Positions 14,220 through 57,845 of a stretch of DNA of 64,000 nt are shown here, in pieces; positions within the stretch are counted from its first letter, which is position 1, and each line of letters opens with the position of its first letter. The notes under the pieces are model-generated. The model was not told where the DNA came from and made no database searches. It worked only from the letters and a program-made list of their open reading frames with translations. The position numbers and the translations under genes were made by a program. The stretch comes from Bacteroidota bacterium (GTDB lineage Bacteria > Bacteroidota > Bacteroidia > Chitinophagales > LD1), in contig CANJLD010000022.1 of the NCBI GenBank assembly GCA_947475165.1, positions 1 through 64,000 on the forward strand, written 5' to 3'.

Positions 14220-15452
14220 ATGGAAATTCAATCAATAAAAAACCGATTTGGCATCATCGGCAATGCACCGGCATTAAATCATGCTATAAGCATTGCAGAA
14301 AGAGTTGCCGCTACCAACCTTACTGTGCTTATAACCGGAGAGAGCGGAGTGGGTAAAGAAGTTTTCTCGCACATTATTCATCAGATAGGTGCGCGCAAAC
14401 ACAATAATTTTATTGCTGTAAACTGCGGTGCAATACCCGAAGGCACTATTGATTCAGAATTATTCGGTCACGAAAAAGGTTCCTTCACCGGTGCACACGA
14501 TGCCCGCAAAGGCTACTTTGAAACCGTAAACGGAGGAACTATTTTTTTAGATGAAATCGGAGAACTTCCTATAGGCACACAGGCGCGTTTGTTGCGCGTG
14601 TTGGAGAGTGGCGAATATATTCGTGTGGGCTCGAGTAAGGTAATTAAAACCGATGTGCGTTTAGTGGCAGCTACCAACGTAAACTTACAGGAAGCAGTGC
14701 GTGCCGGTAAGTTCCGCGAAGATTTGTATTACCGGTTATCAACCGTGCCTATTTACATTCCACCATTGCGCGAGCGTGGTGATGATATTTACATGCTCTT
14801 CCGTAAATTCTCTACCGATTTTTCGGAGAAGAATAAAATACCGGCAGTAAAACTGACCGATGATGCAAAGGAGTTGATTCTGAAATATCCTTGGCCAGGG
14901 AATGTTCGCCAGTTGAAGAACGTGGCTGAACAGGTTTCCATTTTAGCAATGGACAAAGATGTAACAGCAAAAGAACTGCAACAAATAGTACCGGATATTA
15001 CAGACAACCGTTTACCGGCACTTGCCGAAGCGCGTTACAATAGTGGCGGAAGCAATTTCACCGAGCGCGAAATTCTCTACAAACTCATCTTCGATTTAAA
15101 AAACGATTTCAACGACCTCAAGCAATTTGTGTTTGACGTAACTAAAAATCAGGTGAACGGAACACAATCTCTCGATAACCAAATTCCAAATTCCAAATTC
15201 CAAATTCCAAATTCTACTCAGCCTGTTATCCTGTCACATCCTAATTCAAACCAGCCCGTGGTGGTTGACAATAAAGACTTTCACGAATCGGAAACTATCG
15301 AAGAATCGCTGTCGTTAATGGATAAAGAAAAAGAGCTAATCATCAAAGCCTTGAAGAAACATCGCAACAAGCGCAAAAACGCGGCCGATGACTTAGGAAT
15401 TTCGGAACGCACCCTTTACCGGAAGATTAAAGAATACGGCATTGACATTTAA
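14220..15452 (+). CDS. Sigma-54-dependent transcriptional activator (AAA+ and Fis HTH)
   Basis: 410 residues. The AAA+ sigma-54 interaction domain starts at once: Walker A TGESGVGKE near residue 42, the sigma-54 contact loop as GSFTGA (a normal variant of GAFTGA) near 89, Walker B GGTIFLDEIGELP near 105, arginine finger region FREDLYYRLS. The C-terminus is a Fis-type helix-turn-helix (KNAADDLGISERTLYRKIKE). There is no N-terminal receiver or GAF domain, so activity must be controlled by partners or level. The linker (about residues 320-332) is built from a CCAAATT heptamer array. Downstream lptE follows 7 bases after the stop, suggesting an operon with envelope genes. Confidence 0.93.
   Translation: MEIQSIKNRFGIIGNAPALNHAISIAERVAATNLTVLITGESGVGKEVFSHIIHQIGARKHNNFIAVNCGAIPEGTIDSELFGHEKGSFTGAHDARKGYFETVNGGTIFLDEIGELPIGTQARLLRVLESGEYIRVGSSKVIKTDVRLVAATNVNLQEAVRAGKFREDLYYRLSTVPIYIPPLRERGDDIYMLFRKFSTDFSEKNKIPAVKLTDDAKELILKYPWPGNVRQLKNVAEQVSILAMDKDVTAKELQQIVPDITDNRLPALAEARYNSGGSNFTEREILYKLIFDLKNDFNDLKQFVFDVTKNQVNGTQSLDNQIPNSKFQIPNSTQPVILSHPNSNQPVVVDNKDFHESETIEESLSLMDKEKELIIKALKKHRNKRKNAADDLGISERTLYRKIKEYGIDI
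15179..15213 (+). repeat. Heptanucleotide array CCAAATT x5 inside the sigma-54 activator gene
   Basis: Five perfect CCAAATT copies in register. They code for the NQIPNSKFQIPNST linker between the AAA+ and HTH domains. Seven is not a multiple of three, so gain or loss of one unit would shift the frame before the DNA-binding domain. Confidence 0.9.
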
Positions 15453-15459
15453 TTACAGA

Positions 15460-15969
15460 ATGAAAAGAATCGTTGCCTATTGCCTATTGCCCATTGCCTA
15501 CTGCCTACTGCTAACTGGTTGTAAGGTTTACTCCTTCACCGGTGCCAGCGTTCCGGCAGATGTTCATACTGTATCAGTTGACCTTTTTCAAAACCGCGCC
15601 AGCAACGGACCGGCTTCTTTATCGCAGGCATTTACCGATAAGCTGAAATTTAAAATGCAAACCGAAGCCAACCTGCGCCAAGTAGCCAGCGAAGGCGATT
15701 TACAATTCAGTGGAGCGATAACCGGTTACGTTTACACCAGCGATGCACCGGTGGCAAACGCTACCAGTGGTTTAAATAAACTCACTATTACAGTGCAGGT
15801 GCATTATGTAAATGCAAATGATGAAAAAGATAAATGGGACCAGAGTTTCTCCCGCTACGCACAGTATTCTTCCAGCGATGATATTCAATCGGTAGAGGAC
15901 AGGTTAATTGGCGAGATAAATACGCAATTGGTAGATGATATTTTTCAGAAGGCGTTAGTAAAGTGGTAA
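15460..15969 (+). CDS. lptE: LPS assembly lipoprotein LptE (Bacteroidota type)
   Basis: 169 residues from the ATG at 15460 (MKRIVAYCLL). Lipoprotein signal with lipobox LLLTGC, then KVYSFTGASVP, the start of the LptE-like fold, and LQFSGAITGYVYT, typical of the family. LptE plugs the LptD barrel that inserts lipopolysaccharide in the outer membrane. The position between the sigma-54 activator and secG is the usual one in this phylum. The hydrophobic signal-peptide core is encoded by a TGCCTAY heptamer array (15474-15515), which is unusual. Confidence 0.85.
   Translation: MKRIVAYCLLPIAYCLLLTGCKVYSFTGASVPADVHTVSVDLFQNRASNGPASLSQAFTDKLKFKMQTEANLRQVASEGDLQFSGAITGYVYTSDAPVANATSGLNKLTITVQVHYVNANDEKDKWDQSFSRYAQYSSSDDIQSVEDRLIGEINTQLVDDIFQKALVKW
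15474..15515 (+). repeat. Heptanucleotide array TGCCTAY x6 encoding the LptE signal peptide
   Basis: Units TGCCTAT, TGCCTAT, TGCCCAT, TGCCTAC, TGCCTAC and TGCTAAC in register. Translated they give the AYCLLPIAYCLLLTG hydrophobic core and the residue before the lipobox cysteine. Confidence 0.9.
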
Positions 15970-26309: not shown

Positions 26310-26678
26310 ATGGACGTGCCTGAAAAGAGGAATATTTTGAAAGAGAAGTCTTTTAGTTTTTCGGTAAGAGTTGTAAAGTTATATCAGTATTTAAAGAAAG
26401 AGCATCAAGAGTATGAATTGGGTAAACAAGTATTAAGAAGCGGAACATCAATTGCTGCCAATATTGAAGAGGCAATTGGAGGATATTCCAGAAAAGATTT
26501 TTATGCAAAGTTGGGCATATCTTATAAAGAAGCTCGCGAAACAAGATTCTGGCTTCAATTGCTACACGCGTCACAATTGTTAGAAGACAAAGTATATAGG
26601 AGCTTAGAAAAAGATTGCAATGAGTTAATTAAGCTGTTAATTTCTATACTCAAAACAAATAAGGAGAAACCCTTATAA
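26310..26678 (+). CDS. Four-helix-bundle protein (23S rRNA intervening-sequence protein family)
   Basis: 122 residues. Matches the S23/IVP family: KSFSFSVRVVKLYQYL, VLRSGTSIAANIEEA and FYAKLGISYKEARETRFW are its hallmark blocks. Related proteins are encoded in intervening sequences of 23S rRNA genes; the free copies in Bacteroidota have no known function, though they are thought to form pentameric bundles and bind nucleic acid. It interrupts the exbB-exbD gene pair and is framed by inverted AT-rich heptamer arrays, which suggests a mobile cassette. Confidence 0.92.
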   Translation: MDVPEKRNILKEKSFSFSVRVVKLYQYLKKEHQEYELGKQVLRSGTSIAANIEEAIGGYSRKDFYAKLGISYKEARETRFWLQLLHASQLLEDKVYRSLEKDCNELIKLLISILKTNKEKPL

Positions 26679-26700
26679 TTTTTAATTTATAATTATTAAT
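26673..26700. repeat. AT-rich heptanucleotide array, right flank of the IVP gene
   Basis: Units TTATAAT, TTTTAAT, TTATAAT, TATTAAT, followed by TCTCTGA. It overlaps the last codons and stop of the IVP gene. The array at 27184-27211 has the same units in a different order, also followed by TCTCT. Confidence 0.8.
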
Positions 26701-26710
26701 TCTCTGAAGA

Positions 26711-27106: not shown

Positions 27107-27211
27107 TTATGAATTGATAATGATAAATTATAAATTAATACAAAACAGCCGGTGGATTTGTGGAATTATAAAACAGAAGCATCTTATAATTATTAATTTA
27201 TAATTTTTAAT
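27105..27211. repeat. Pair of AT-rich heptamer arrays with a short core between exbD and tonB
   Basis: Left part 27105-27139: AATTATG, AATTGAT, AATGATA, AATTATA, AATTAAT in 7-bp register. Right part 27184-27211: TTATAAT, TATTAAT, TTATAAT, TTTTAAT, then TCTCT. Between them lies a 44-base core with no gene. The layout copies the IVP cassette without the protein gene. Confidence 0.75.
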
Positions 27212-27220
27212 TCTCTATAA

Positions 27221-40476: not shown

Positions 40477-40623
40477 CTTTTTAGAGTGCGCATTTACTCA
40501 TTTGCTTATTCTAACTACCTTTTTAGAGTGCCCATTTATATCCGCGAAGGCAATTCGGAATGCCGCAAAGGGAATTGGGAATGCCGTAAAGGCAATTCGG
40601 AATGCCGTAAAGGCAATTCGGAA
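40477..40623. repeat. Tandem array C: seven 21-bp units
   Basis: Units start at 40477, 40498, 40519, 40540, 40561, 40582 and 40603. The last two are identical (TGCCGTAAAGGCAATTCGGA plus A). Units 40477 and 40519 are nearly identical, so the first part has a 42-bp higher-order period, as in array A. Open frames across it only translate the repeat. With the element at 40355 it fills the spacer 40281-40724; I see no gene there. Confidence 0.9.
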
Positions 40624-49484: not shown

Positions 49485-50325
49485 ATTTTTCGCCTTTCAC
49501 CATTCTGTCTTTTCCGCTCAGGTCTTTTCGCAGTTCAATATTTTTGAATCCTGCATTTTCCATCAGCGCAACAACACCTGCTCCTTTTGAATGATGAATT
49601 TCGAAGAATAATTTCCCTTTTGGCTTTAATGCCTTTGTTGCCTGTTCTGAAATTCTGCGGTAGAAAATCAAATCATCATCGCTTGTAGCGAAGAGGGCTA
49701 AATGCGGTTCGAACTTTAAAACATTTTCGTTCAACGATTCCTTTTCATGCAACGAAATGTAAGGAGGGTTACTTACAATGATATCGTACGTGTTTTCAAC
49801 AAGAGTTTCATTCAGAATATCGCACTTATAAAACCTTACATTAGTTTGATGAAGAGTGTCGTTTTTTTCTGCAACGTTTAATGCTTCCTTGCTTATATCA
49901 ATTGCTTCAACTTGCGCTTCCGAAAATTTCTTTGCAAGAAAAATGGGAATGCATCCGCTGCCAGTGCCAATGTCAAGAATTGCGGATTGCGGATTTTGGA
50001 TTGCGGATTGAATCCACTCCACTAACTCCTCTGTTTCCGGTCTTGGAATAAGAACGTGTTTGTTTACTTTAAACTTAAGACCATAAAAATCTGCTTCTTC
50101 CAAAACATATTGAACTGGTTCGTGCGTGAGTAATCGATTGAGAATTTCATTTAACCGTTCAATCTGATTGGTGGTTAGAATCCGAAACCGTTCTAAGAAA
50201 AGTTTATGCGATTGCAGTTCCAGTATTTTTTCGAAAACTATTTTGGTGACAGAACGCGCTTCGCGCTCGTCATAAACGGTTGAAAGCTCGTCCCAATATT
50301 TTTTTTGAATTTCTGAAATCGTCAC
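49477..50325 (-). CDS. prmC: Release-factor glutamine methyltransferase
   Basis: 282 residues. Methylates the Gln of the GGQ motif of release factors RF1 and RF2 using S-adenosylmethionine. Substrate-binding N-terminal helical domain, then PRPETEELVEW near 92, AdoMet motif I ILDIGTGSGCIPIFLA near 115, VEAIDISKEAL and the catalytic VSNPPYI near 187. The linker just before motif I (IQSAIQNPQSAI) is encoded by a TGCGGAT heptamer array, a variable insertion. All catalytic parts are intact. Confidence 0.95.
   Translation of the reverse strand: MTISEIQKKYWDELSTVYDEREARSVTKIVFEKILELQSHKLFLERFRILTTNQIERLNEILNRLLTHEPVQYVLEEADFYGLKFKVNKHVLIPRPETEELVEWIQSAIQNPQSAILDIGTGSGCIPIFLAKKFSEAQVEAIDISKEALNVAEKNDTLHQTNVRFYKCDILNETLVENTYDIIVSNPPYISLHEKESLNENVLKFEPHLALFATSDDDLIFYRRISEQATKALKPKGKLFFEIHHSKGAGVVALMENAGFKNIELRKDLSGKDRMVKGEKFN
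49981..50008 (+). repeat. Heptanucleotide array TGCGGAT inside prmC
   Basis: TGCGGAT, TGCGGAT, TTTGGAT, TGCGGAT in register on the plus strand. It encodes the QSAIQNPQSAI linker just before AdoMet motif I. Confidence 0.85.
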
Positions 50326-55113: not shown

Positions 55114-56058
55114 TTAATGAATGCCCTTGGCACTCAGCCAGCGTTCGGTTTCAAGGGCTGCCATGCAGCCTGTTCCGGCTGCGGTTACTGCCTGACGGTA
55201 TGTTTTATCCTGCAAATCGCCACAGGCGAATACGCCTTCTACATTTGTTTTAGCAGAACCGGGAACGGTTACCACATATCCTTCGGTATCGGTAGTAATA
55301 AAATCTTTAAACACGTCTGAGTTTGGTTTGTGGCCTATGGCTACAAAGAAACCTGTTACGGGAACTTCAATTTTTTCACCGGTTTTGTTGTTGAGTATGC
55401 GAACAGCTTCTACGGTGTTTTCGCCCAGCACTTCATCGGTTTCGCTGTTCCAGTATACCTTAATGTTTTTGGTATCGAGCACGCGCTGCTGCATAATTTT
55501 AGAGGCGCGCATTTCGTCTCTGCGCACAATCATGTGCACTTTGGTGCAGAGTTTTGAAAGATAGATAGCTTCTTCGCAAGCAGTATCACCGGCACCCACA
55601 ATGGCTACTTCCTGATTGCGATAGAAAAAACCATCGCATACTGCACAGGCACTAACACCCGAGCCGTTCAAACGTTTTTCGCTGGGTAAGCCTAACCATT
55701 TTGCTTCGGCACCAGTGGCGAGGATTACTGCATCGGCTTCTACCAGTTTCTCGTCATCAATCCAAACTTTTTTAGGCGATACGGAAAAATCAACTTTAGT
55801 AGCCATGCCAAAACGAATGTCTGTTCCGAAACGCTCTGCCTGATTTTTGAAGTCTTCCATCATCTCCGGCCCGAGGATTCCTTTGGGGTAACCGGGATAG
55901 TTTTCTACATCAGTAGTATTTACCAGTTGTCCGCCTTGTAACAGGCCGGTATACATTACGGGCTTTAAGCCGGCACGCGCTGCATAAATTGCAGCGGTGT
56001 AACCCGCAGGGCCTGAACCAATAATTAAACAGTTAAATTTTTCAACTACATTACTCAT
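55114..56058 (-). CDS. trxB: Thioredoxin reductase
   Basis: 314 residues. FAD loop IIGSGPAGYTAAIYAARAG at residues 11-29, redox CxxC as CAVCDG near 138, NADPH loop VAIVGAGDTACEEAIYL near 152, and the C-terminal FAD motif GVFACGDLQDKTYRQ. Reduces thioredoxin with NADPH. Monocistronic. The upstream region reads TTATTTTCG about 20 bases before the ATG, a weak promoter-like sequence. Confidence 0.97.
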   Translation of the reverse strand: MSNVVEKFNCLIIGSGPAGYTAAIYAARAGLKPVMYTGLLQGGQLVNTTDVENYPGYPKGILGPEMMEDFKNQAERFGTDIRFGMATKVDFSVSPKKVWIDDEKLVEADAVILATGAEAKWLGLPSEKRLNGSGVSACAVCDGFFYRNQEVAIVGAGDTACEEAIYLSKLCTKVHMIVRRDEMRASKIMQQRVLDTKNIKVYWNSETDEVLGENTVEAVRILNNKTGEKIEVPVTGFFVAIGHKPNSDVFKDFITTDTEGYVVTVPGSAKTNVEGVFACGDLQDKTYRQAVTAAGTGCMAALETERWLSAKGIH

Positions 56059-56307
56059 ACAAATATTTTAAGCGGACGAAAATAAGATTGTGAAGGAATT
56101 AGACGCGGTGGATTAATAAACATTACCAATCCGGCCGGGTGTTTCGCTTGCGCGTATGTGAGGGCGCGGGCGCAAACAAATGCGAGTGATTACGAAGCAA
56201 TCGTCTCTCGCCTGACAATTGTTTGGCATGAGCTCTCATTTTATTACCACCTCGCCCTGCTGGCACTTCTGCTAAAACAGGAGGAGAATCTGTGTGTGAA
56301 GTGGTGA

Positions 56308-56590
56308 TTCCGGAGCTTACTGACAGGTTCGCGGGGTGTACTGAGGCGTTCGCGATGCATGTTGAGTGTGCCGCGGGACGTGTTGAGTTGGCCGCGGAGC
56401 ATGATGAACTCACCGCGGAACTGATTGAGTGCGTCCCGAAGCATGTTGAAGCCTCCGCGGAATGGATAGGGTGCTCCGCGGGTGAGGTTGAGTGCTCCGC
56501 GAAGCGGATTAAATGGTCCGCGGAGTAGATTGAAAGCACCGCGGAGCATGCAGAGAGGTCCGCGCGGCATGTTAAAACCACCGCGGAGCA
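56308..56590. repeat. Tandem array D: 14 imperfect 21-bp units with a CCGCGG core
   Basis: CCGCGG or a one- to three-base variant recurs exactly every 21 bp at 56308, 56329, 56350, 56371, 56392, 56413, 56434, 56455, 56476, 56497, 56518, 56539, 56560 and 56581. The rest of each unit varies more, but most units keep a TGA or ATG block. A minus-strand open frame across it reads LRG-type heptads, as expected from any 21-bp repeat. The spacer 56059-56810 holds no gene that I accept; the repeat at 56660 is its only other feature. Confidence 0.95.
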
Positions 56591-56659
56591 AACTGTATTG
56601 TGTTTCGGGCTGTTATTGTGTTAAAATGGGTTTGAAAATGGGTTTTGACCTGATGTGTG

Positions 56660-56686
56660 TGTCATGCCGAGGTACGAGGCATCTTG
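56660..56686. repeat. Dispersed TGTCATGCCGAGG-type repeat
   Basis: GTCATGCCGAGGTACGAGGC then ATCTT, with a GCC(T/G)CG palindrome. I recall this sequence as a common dispersed element in other Bacteroidota. Weak evidence from one copy here. Confidence 0.45.
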
Positions 56687-56810
56687 TATTTTGTATTCGG
56701 CTGTTGGCTGGCGGGGTTAGGGAAAGTTGTGGAAACCCCGCAGCCTGCTTTGGGGCGAAGACTTGTAACGGATAGCCGGCCCGCGCTTTGGCGAGAACCC
56801 AGTAATAATT

Positions 56811-57845
56811 TTACTGCGGAACAATAACCTGATAGTATTTGGTGGCATAGCCTGCCCATATGCCCAGCCCGTTGTTGATGTTGGTTTTAATTTTTACGGG
56901 CGATGAAAAGGGGCTGTCGCCCCCGTCATTTTCGAGGGTGAAGAAGAAGTCGTAGGTTTTGGAATCGATATTGCTCCATTTTACGCTTACGGTATCGCCT
57001 TTGTAAAACAGAAAATCTGTATTGAAATCGATTTTAGCATTGGGGTCCTGCCCGCGCTCGATGGGCAGGGCAATTTGAAGGCCTACCCAAAGTTTATCGT
57101 CCCACACGGTTCCGCTGGCGGGGTTGTAGTATGGCTCGTTGTTGCGTTTTGTTTTGTAACGAAGGAAATTGCCGAAAGTATCGGGCACCGAAACGTTGGA
57201 GTAAAGCGAAACCATAGAGTCGCGGTAAGCGGGATTGCTCGCCTCGCGGATGCTGATGGAATCCATACCTACGGCCGTAGGAATATAAGTGGTGGATGTA
57301 ACGTGAACAGAATCGGTACCGGTGAAGCCGGGGGCCATAATATCGAGCGCGTAGGAGGTTCTTTCTTTACCGGTAAAGCTGGCTGTGCCGGTGGTAAAAT
57401 AGGTGGCAATATCCGGAATGGTGTAAACGCAAACGTTGGGGATGTTGGCAGAGTCAACGGTTGAAAAGCCGAGGGCGCTGAGTAAAATATCCTGCTGGTC
57501 TTGCGGAAGATTTAAGCCTTGCAAGCAAAGTTCGATAAGCGGGGTTTGTGTTCCATCGCTGCCGGTTACGGTAATGTTTGCACCGTGAACAAAGTAGTTG
57601 CCGAGATTATTTAAATCGATAGTACCGAAAAATTTCTGGCTCTTGGTGAGGATAACCACTGGTGGCACTCCGTTCTCTATTGTTCCATCTACTACTATCT
57701 GCTGGGCGGAGTCGGGAATTTCTACATCGATTACTTTGGTGCAGGAGGGAAAGACGATAGACATTAAACACAAGACACAAGACAATGCCAATACATTTCT
57801 GACATTGAAAAAACTGCTCCGTTGTATTTGTCTTGTGTCTAACAT
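56811..57845 (-). CDS. DUF4249 lipoprotein
   Basis: 344 residues. Lipoprotein signal with lipobox FPSC (residues about 31-34), then the DUF4249 start (TKVIDVEIPDSAQQIVVDGT, IENGVPPVVILTKS). Such lipoproteins are encoded next to TonB-dependent receptors in Bacteroidota, as here (21 bases downstream of one), and are thought to bind the substrate or cap the receptor at the surface. The substrate is unknown. Confidence 0.9.
   Translation of the reverse strand: MLDTRQIQRSSFFNVRNVLALSCVLCLMSIVFPSCTKVIDVEIPDSAQQIVVDGTIENGVPPVVILTKSQKFFGTIDLNNLGNYFVHGANITVTGSDGTQTPLIELCLQGLNLPQDQQDILLSALGFSTVDSANIPNVCVYTIPDIATYFTTGTASFTGKERTSYALDIMAPGFTGTDSVHVTSTTYIPTAVGMDSISIREASNPAYRDSMVSLYSNVSVPDTFGNFLRYKTKRNNEPYYNPASGTVWDDKLWVGLQIALPIERGQDPNAKIDFNTDFLFYKGDTVSVKWSNIDSKTYDFFFTLENDGGDSPFSSPVKIKTNINNGLGIWAGYATKYYQVIVPQ

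Follow-up and report, generated by a model that had tools for sequence, protein, structure and literature searches.

The stretch of 64,000 nucleotides analysed here (the window) comes from an uncultured member of the Bacteroidota and represents approximately one whole contig of its 3.88-Mb, 45-contig genome. At positions 56304–56590 it carries array D, an intergenic row of 287 bp composed of 14 units of exactly 21 bp each. The array lies in the following setting:

56304–56590, no strand: array D, 14 x 21 bp, consensus CCGCGGAGCATGTTGAGTGCT, with a CCGCGG core and a weaker TGA block
56371–56586, no strand: best-conserved stretch of array D, with exact CCGCGG at 56371, 56392, 56413, 56455, 56476, 56518, 56539 and 56581
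56059–56810, no strand: expanded intergenic gap carrying array D, 752 bp (in six congeneric relatives, 70–128 bp and no array)
55114–56058, minus strand: thioredoxin-reductase-like (trxB) side gene, its start 246 bp from array D, with a short leader conserved in relatives
56811–57845, minus strand: DUF4249-like lipoprotein gene, its end 221 bp from array D

Judging by sequence resemblance, we take the neighbours of array D to be trxB-like, DUF4249-like, membrane metalloprotease-like and TonB-receptor-like genes.

An earlier note on this DNA had described a CCGCGG-like core at every 21st base without slip. Indeed, all 14 units stand in register, and the lag-21 identity of positions 56308–56590 is 0.59, far above that of shuffled sequences (n = 5000; 0.267 ± 0.027, maximum 0.366). 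Alignment to the repeated unit gave 208 matches, 79 substitutions and a single 1-bp gap at the extreme end, with no internal indel. Conservation is centred on CCGCGG and more weakly on the TGA block, and the spacers are variable; CCGCGG is exact in 8 of the 14 units, CGCG is present within the core in 12, and eight of the 13 CCGCGG occurrences in the whole 64 kb fall inside the array. The conserved columns lie next to one another (p = 0.001), and the consensus contains a loopless 14-bp dyad, TGCTCCGCGGAGCA, which was significant in two separate tests (p = 0.005 and p = 0.012). Array D shows exact helical spacing, a core that varies less than its spacers and a dyad-symmetric site, as an operator array for an HTH dimer would; it lacks a gene for a cognate DNA-binding protein beside it, and we therefore treat it as probably working like such an array and not as a proven member. 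A clustered regularly interspaced short palindromic repeats (CRISPR) array, made of identical repeats of at least 20 bp and unrelated spacers, was rejected, since the whole period is 21 bp, the core 6 bp and the remainder consists of diverged copies.

In the relative G001, trxB and the DUF4249 gene stand 526 bp apart, and the 21-bp array between them is unrelated in sequence, showing no similarity to array D (p = 0.80). The earlier note had raised the question of whether relatives carry arrays of other periods at this site; they do not, the site being either empty or occupied by a 21-bp array of other sequence. The short trxB leader is retained beyond the added DNA in G000, G001 and G017, and its retention on the far side indicates that array D was gained without disturbing the leader.

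Arrays of period 21 and 42 across the genus

Arrays were counted in an 844-kb sample (22% of the genome), a genus sample of 1.63 Mb and, from outside the genus but within its family and order, 0.94 Mb. The intergenic autocorrelation proposed in the earlier note, run on the 844 kb, gave peaks at 21, 42, 63, 84, 105 and 126 and otherwise at very short lags only. These 844 kb contain 24 noncoding arrays of the class, with periods of 21 (12 arrays), 42 (10), 41 (one) and 43 bp (one), so that the possibility that the genome has no further 21-bp arrays, also considered in the earlier note, can be set aside. Extrapolation yields about 110 arrays per genome (Poisson range roughly 70–160). The genus sample gave 33 arrays (15 of period 21, 14 of period 42, three of period 41 and one of period 43), with none of 20 or 22 bp in its 1.63 Mb, and no such array was found in the 0.94 Mb of other genera. 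Their spread within the genus is uneven, as the samples of G013, G014 and G016 (60–160 kb each) had no period-21 or period-42 arrays.

The units are mostly unrelated from array to array, although a few cores were met again at another locus or in another species; one core common to all arrays was rejected because only a few related pairs were found. Among 47 arrays, 2316 substitutions were counted versus 49 indel events, many of them paired or terminal, and the conserved cores form unbroken blocks of columns (combined p = 2e-6 over the 21-bp arrays and 2e-5 over the 42-bp arrays). The register has been kept through thousands of substitutions across the class, in agreement with the earlier view that selection acts on spacing and core and not on the whole unit. 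Substructure of 7 or 10.5 bp is absent from the arrays (lag 7, z = 0.6; lag 10 below chance).

Arrays upstream of helix-turn-helix/coiled-coil genes

One array, L061, has an orthologue with the same core in G010, and the gene behind it (L061:6982-7377) encodes a 131-residue protein, P0003. Two further copies of P0003 in the same genome and its orthologues in G010 and G017 each have a same-core 21-bp array directly upstream. The predicted structure of P0003 consists of a five-helix helix-turn-helix (HTH) domain followed by a 58-residue helix (predicted local distance difference test score 85, predicted template modelling score 0.48), and its nearest solved folds are of the XRE type, although with weak Foldseek E-values (best 4e-3). 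Whereas P0003 was found via its array, the remaining family members were found via protein sequence, using a profile of P0003 relatives that retrieved nine genes in the own genome and others elsewhere in the genus. A 21- or 42-bp array lies at most 450 bp upstream of 20 of 29 HTH/coiled-coil genes compared with 26 of 639 genes generally (4%; Fisher p = 4e-19), and in the own genome alone of all seven tested genes (p = 5e-10), both p-values being too strong because orthologues and close paralogues are non-independent. The divergent paralogues of the own genome carry the link by themselves, and an eighth gene there, L023, likewise has an upstream array. No arrays were found downstream of the HTH/coiled-coil genes. 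In addition, the L060 array precedes a gene that scores above the Pfam HTH_26 cut-off; three other XRE-type genes in the examined sequence have no array.

The similarity of array cores tracks that of the proteins (Mantel r = 0.75, p = 2e-4); with the largest group removed, r is 0.61 (p = 2e-4). In one group, the two halves of the consensus site change in concert, reading TGTTAGG-CTTTAA-CCTAACA in G004 and TGTTAGC-CTTTAA-GCTAACA in G017. An orthologous array of 11 units aligns between the own genome and G004 without gaps over 231 bp, with 79% identity from copy n to copy n compared with 64% for next copies, and the DNA beyond it aligns poorly; column conservation between the species correlates with that among copies (r = 0.77). 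For the class, the earlier proposal of a scaffold for a DNA-binding protein is backed by XRE-type HTH/coiled-coil genes with arrays directly upstream; for array D, no cognate protein was found.

Dyad symmetry was detected in 9 of the 47 consensus units (Fisher 1e-4; mirror control 0.68). With column profiles, it was found in 8 of 24 orphan 21-bp arrays, that is, arrays such as D that lack an HTH gene (1.5e-6; mirror 0.42), and in 7 of 21 HTH-linked arrays, where the result is weaker on account of the mirror control (1.7e-4; mirror 0.02). Palindromicity as a class-wide property was therefore rejected. The earlier note had proposed palindromic cores that all face one side of the helix: the phasing holds, with autocorrelation peaks at multiples of 21, but the palindrome is restricted to a minority of arrays and the core is specific to each.

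Three units of an array and an HTH/coiled-coil gene were noted in one genome: L279 and L280, at the ends of contigs C16 and C37, and L271. Two of the three stop 108 bp before the contig end, as if they lay within a larger repeat.

Array D as a putative operator array

Our assessment, held with slightly better than even confidence, places array D in a class of operator arrays that is specific to the genus, is locked in helical phase and serves HTH dimers which bind cooperatively. Two helical turns of DNA, at 10.5 bp per turn, measure 21 bp. Since no other period under 60 bp is a whole multiple of a 10.5-bp turn, long rows can stay in phase only at 21 or 42 bp. Sites repeated every 21 bp (two turns) or 42 bp would thus all lie on one face of the DNA, where dimers of a small protein could sit side by side, probably with the help of contacts between coiled coils, and build up a cooperative nucleoprotein strip. 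For one subset of arrays, the likely binders are the XRE-type HTH/coiled-coil proteins encoded directly behind them. Simple arithmetic gives a length of about 87 angstrom for the 58-residue helix and a site spacing of about 71 angstrom, which makes contacts between neighbours possible. An array in front of its own HTH gene would act as a cooperative autoregulatory operator, pointing to steep autoregulation. Array D, an orphan, would be bound by a protein encoded elsewhere and, lying outside the trxB leader, could regulate, insulate or titrate. If its putative membership is correct, it would work like the HTH-linked arrays; it may be a target or sponge of that distant protein, or else a recently formed array that has a different role or no role. 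Binding and cooperativity are here deduced from anatomy.

Several observations weigh against this assignment. None of 17 relatives has an orthologue of array D, its motif forms no second array in the genome, and no HTH gene lies beside it or anywhere in the 64-kb window. With regard to the class, HTH genes of the family are not adjacent to most sampled arrays, orphan arrays form the majority, and G005, G007 and G009 have arrays yet only zero to one such HTH/coiled-coil proteins. The orphan arrays show no gene-orientation bias of the kind that a terminator or promoter role would suggest, and the 41- and 43-bp arrays are out of exact phase at 10.5 bp per turn.

The scarcity of indels relative to the many substitutions, the contiguity of the conserved cores and the lack of 20- and 22-bp periods speak against the most serious alternative, namely that the arrays are selfish or neutral minisatellites that grew by slippage or unequal exchange, inherited their 21-bp period from a founder and drifted in sequence, leaving array D functionless. 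We regard this explanation as unlikely, although far from negligible; it would account for the gain and loss of arrays between species, seen both at the array D site (empty in six relatives, with a different array in G001) and at the orthologous sites of other orphan arrays, which are mostly empty and reflect a faster turnover than that of HTH-linked arrays. The 42-bp higher-order repeats of some arrays likewise suggest recent amplification. In this one genome, array D has a contiguous conserved core and no internal indels; a slippage-driven minisatellite would be expected to vary in copy number between strains and to diverge evenly along the unit. The copy-for-copy orthology between species and the strong HTH-gene link also speak against a neutral origin, both being properties of HTH-linked arrays and not of array D. 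Bacterial minisatellites (variable number tandem repeats) are likewise tandem repeats in intergenic DNA; the arrays described here differ in their strict 21/42 period over unrelated units, the near absence of indels and one orthologous array with constant copy number.

It is improbable that the arrays serve as phased architectural DNA, in which a two-turn period would add up small bends into a curved or nucleoid-organising segment regardless of sequence. In a wedge model, the mean curvature of the arrays exceeds that of other intergenic DNA (0.117 vs 0.071; p = 0.004), but the units barely exceed permuted units (Fisher p = 0.04) and array D is uncurved (0.055), which is inconsistent with intrinsic curvature as the common function. 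Moreover, such a role would leave the conserved cores and the HTH link unexplained. We consider it very improbable that each unit forms a hairpin in a transcript or single strand, acting as a protein or RNA sponge or as a processing signal: perfect stems do occur in some arrays, chiefly in a 41-bp family with compensated stems, but a significant stem is lacking in most arrays, array D has a dyad without a loop, no orientation bias is apparent and the window gave no Rfam match. Degenerate coding sequence for a protein of seven-residue (heptad) repeats, suggested by 21 bp being seven codons and by frames of 78–152 codons that cross array D, is largely refuted and was rejected, since open frames through arrays are about as frequent as in permuted units (62 vs 52.5), those of array D do not exceed what permuted units give, many arrays have none, substitutions follow no codon-position pattern (p = 0.996 for excess) and 41- and 43-bp arrays exist.

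Among known systems, plasmid centromere arrays (ParR/parC, TubR/tubC, omega/parS) consist of rows of sites upstream of the gene for a small DNA-binding protein, whose dimers oligomerise on the sites and repress the promoter of that gene (PMC5016525). The HTH-linked arrays here resemble them in lying upstream of a putative binding-protein gene. In contrast, plasmid centromeres act in partition together with a motor protein and are found at one or few loci per replicon, whereas here about 110 chromosomal arrays have different cores and the predicted fold is an XRE-type HTH rather than a ribbon-helix-helix or winged HTH. No motor gene lies beside array D or P0003, and a partition centromere (parC/tubC) was rejected for array D, whose neighbours are not a binding protein plus a motor (ParA, ParM, TubZ). 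XRE-type repressors such as HipB, SinR and C.Esp1396I bind dyad operators upstream of their own genes. They share the HTH domain type with the predicted P0003 model, but have few operators, compared with rows of about 7–17 sites at exact two-turn spacing and a long C-terminal helix in the present family. The nearest genome-wide class of intergenic repeats is formed by the TAACTGA heptamer direct repeats of Beggiatoaceae, Cyanobacteria and some Bacteroidetes, with many intergenic sets per genome (PMC4679880). These differ from the present arrays in unit and copy number, the latter having 21/42-bp units of array-specific sequence without 7-bp substructure.

Chromosomal arrays with two-turn spacing and array-specific sequence were not described in the papers searched, which came from a library with few subscription journals. 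Tentatively, the genus may possess an undescribed regulatory layer of about a hundred two-turn arrays, each with an individual sequence, that are recognised by a diversifying family of XRE-type HTH/coiled-coil proteins and perhaps other HTH types, with lock-and-key co-evolution of protein and array and with new arrays still arising in intergenic DNA. If so, repeats normally dismissed as minisatellites would constitute a large natural set of helically phased protein–array pairs, each with its own specificity, and a source of orthogonal repressor–operator pairs. Direct tests would become possible of the workings of cooperative HTH strips, of the joint evolution of operator and protein specificity in parallel lineages and of the birth of operator arrays. 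For array D by itself, less would follow: it would be a candidate operator or sponge next to trxB.

Sibling arrays and other repeats

Besides array D, the window contains three further arrays:

1–180, no strand: array A, period 42, 4.3 units, at the contig end
11781–11978, no strand: array B, period 21, 9.4 units
40542–40623, no strand: array C, period 21, 3.9 units

The count of four arrays given earlier is correct, and B, C and D have a period of 21; their coordinates have been corrected here, array C comprises only 3.9 units, and array A has a period of 42, with no 21-bp similarity within it.

In the own genome, G007, G017 and, weakly, G010, 21/42-bp arrays of different sequence lie before one gene, probably that of isocitrate lyase (L019:16694-16924; L079:13453-13632; L180:2062-2236; L175:1982-2090). 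Other arrays lie next to hypothetical proteins of about 210–400 residues, some with weak Fn3 or carboxypeptidase-regulatory-like domains (L005:10409-11056; L009:11890-13080; L019:2577-3323; L060:15510-16523; L094:2514-3149), a possible second association. The 41-bp array family with a hairpin-like stem occupies non-orthologous loci (L064:1853-2145; L146:1319-1636; L144:835-974; perhaps L093:6105-6399), and its stem is compensated between species (CCGTGG-TTT-CCACGG vs CTCTGTGG-TTT-CCACAGAG).

Array D is flanked by 56160–56215 (GCGAGTGATTACGAAGCAATCG) and 56660–56700 (GTCATGCCGAGGTACGAGGCATC), which look like dispersed intergenic repeats of Bacteroidetes. Heptamer tandem repeats occur in the window at 15179–15214, 15473–15511 and 49979–50010 (CCAAATT, TTGCCTA and ATTGCGG), and lag 7 is raised in other genera too. 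Finally, an identical 29-bp stretch of TTATAATTATTAAT repeats is present at 26673–26701 and 27184–27212, about 500 bp apart.
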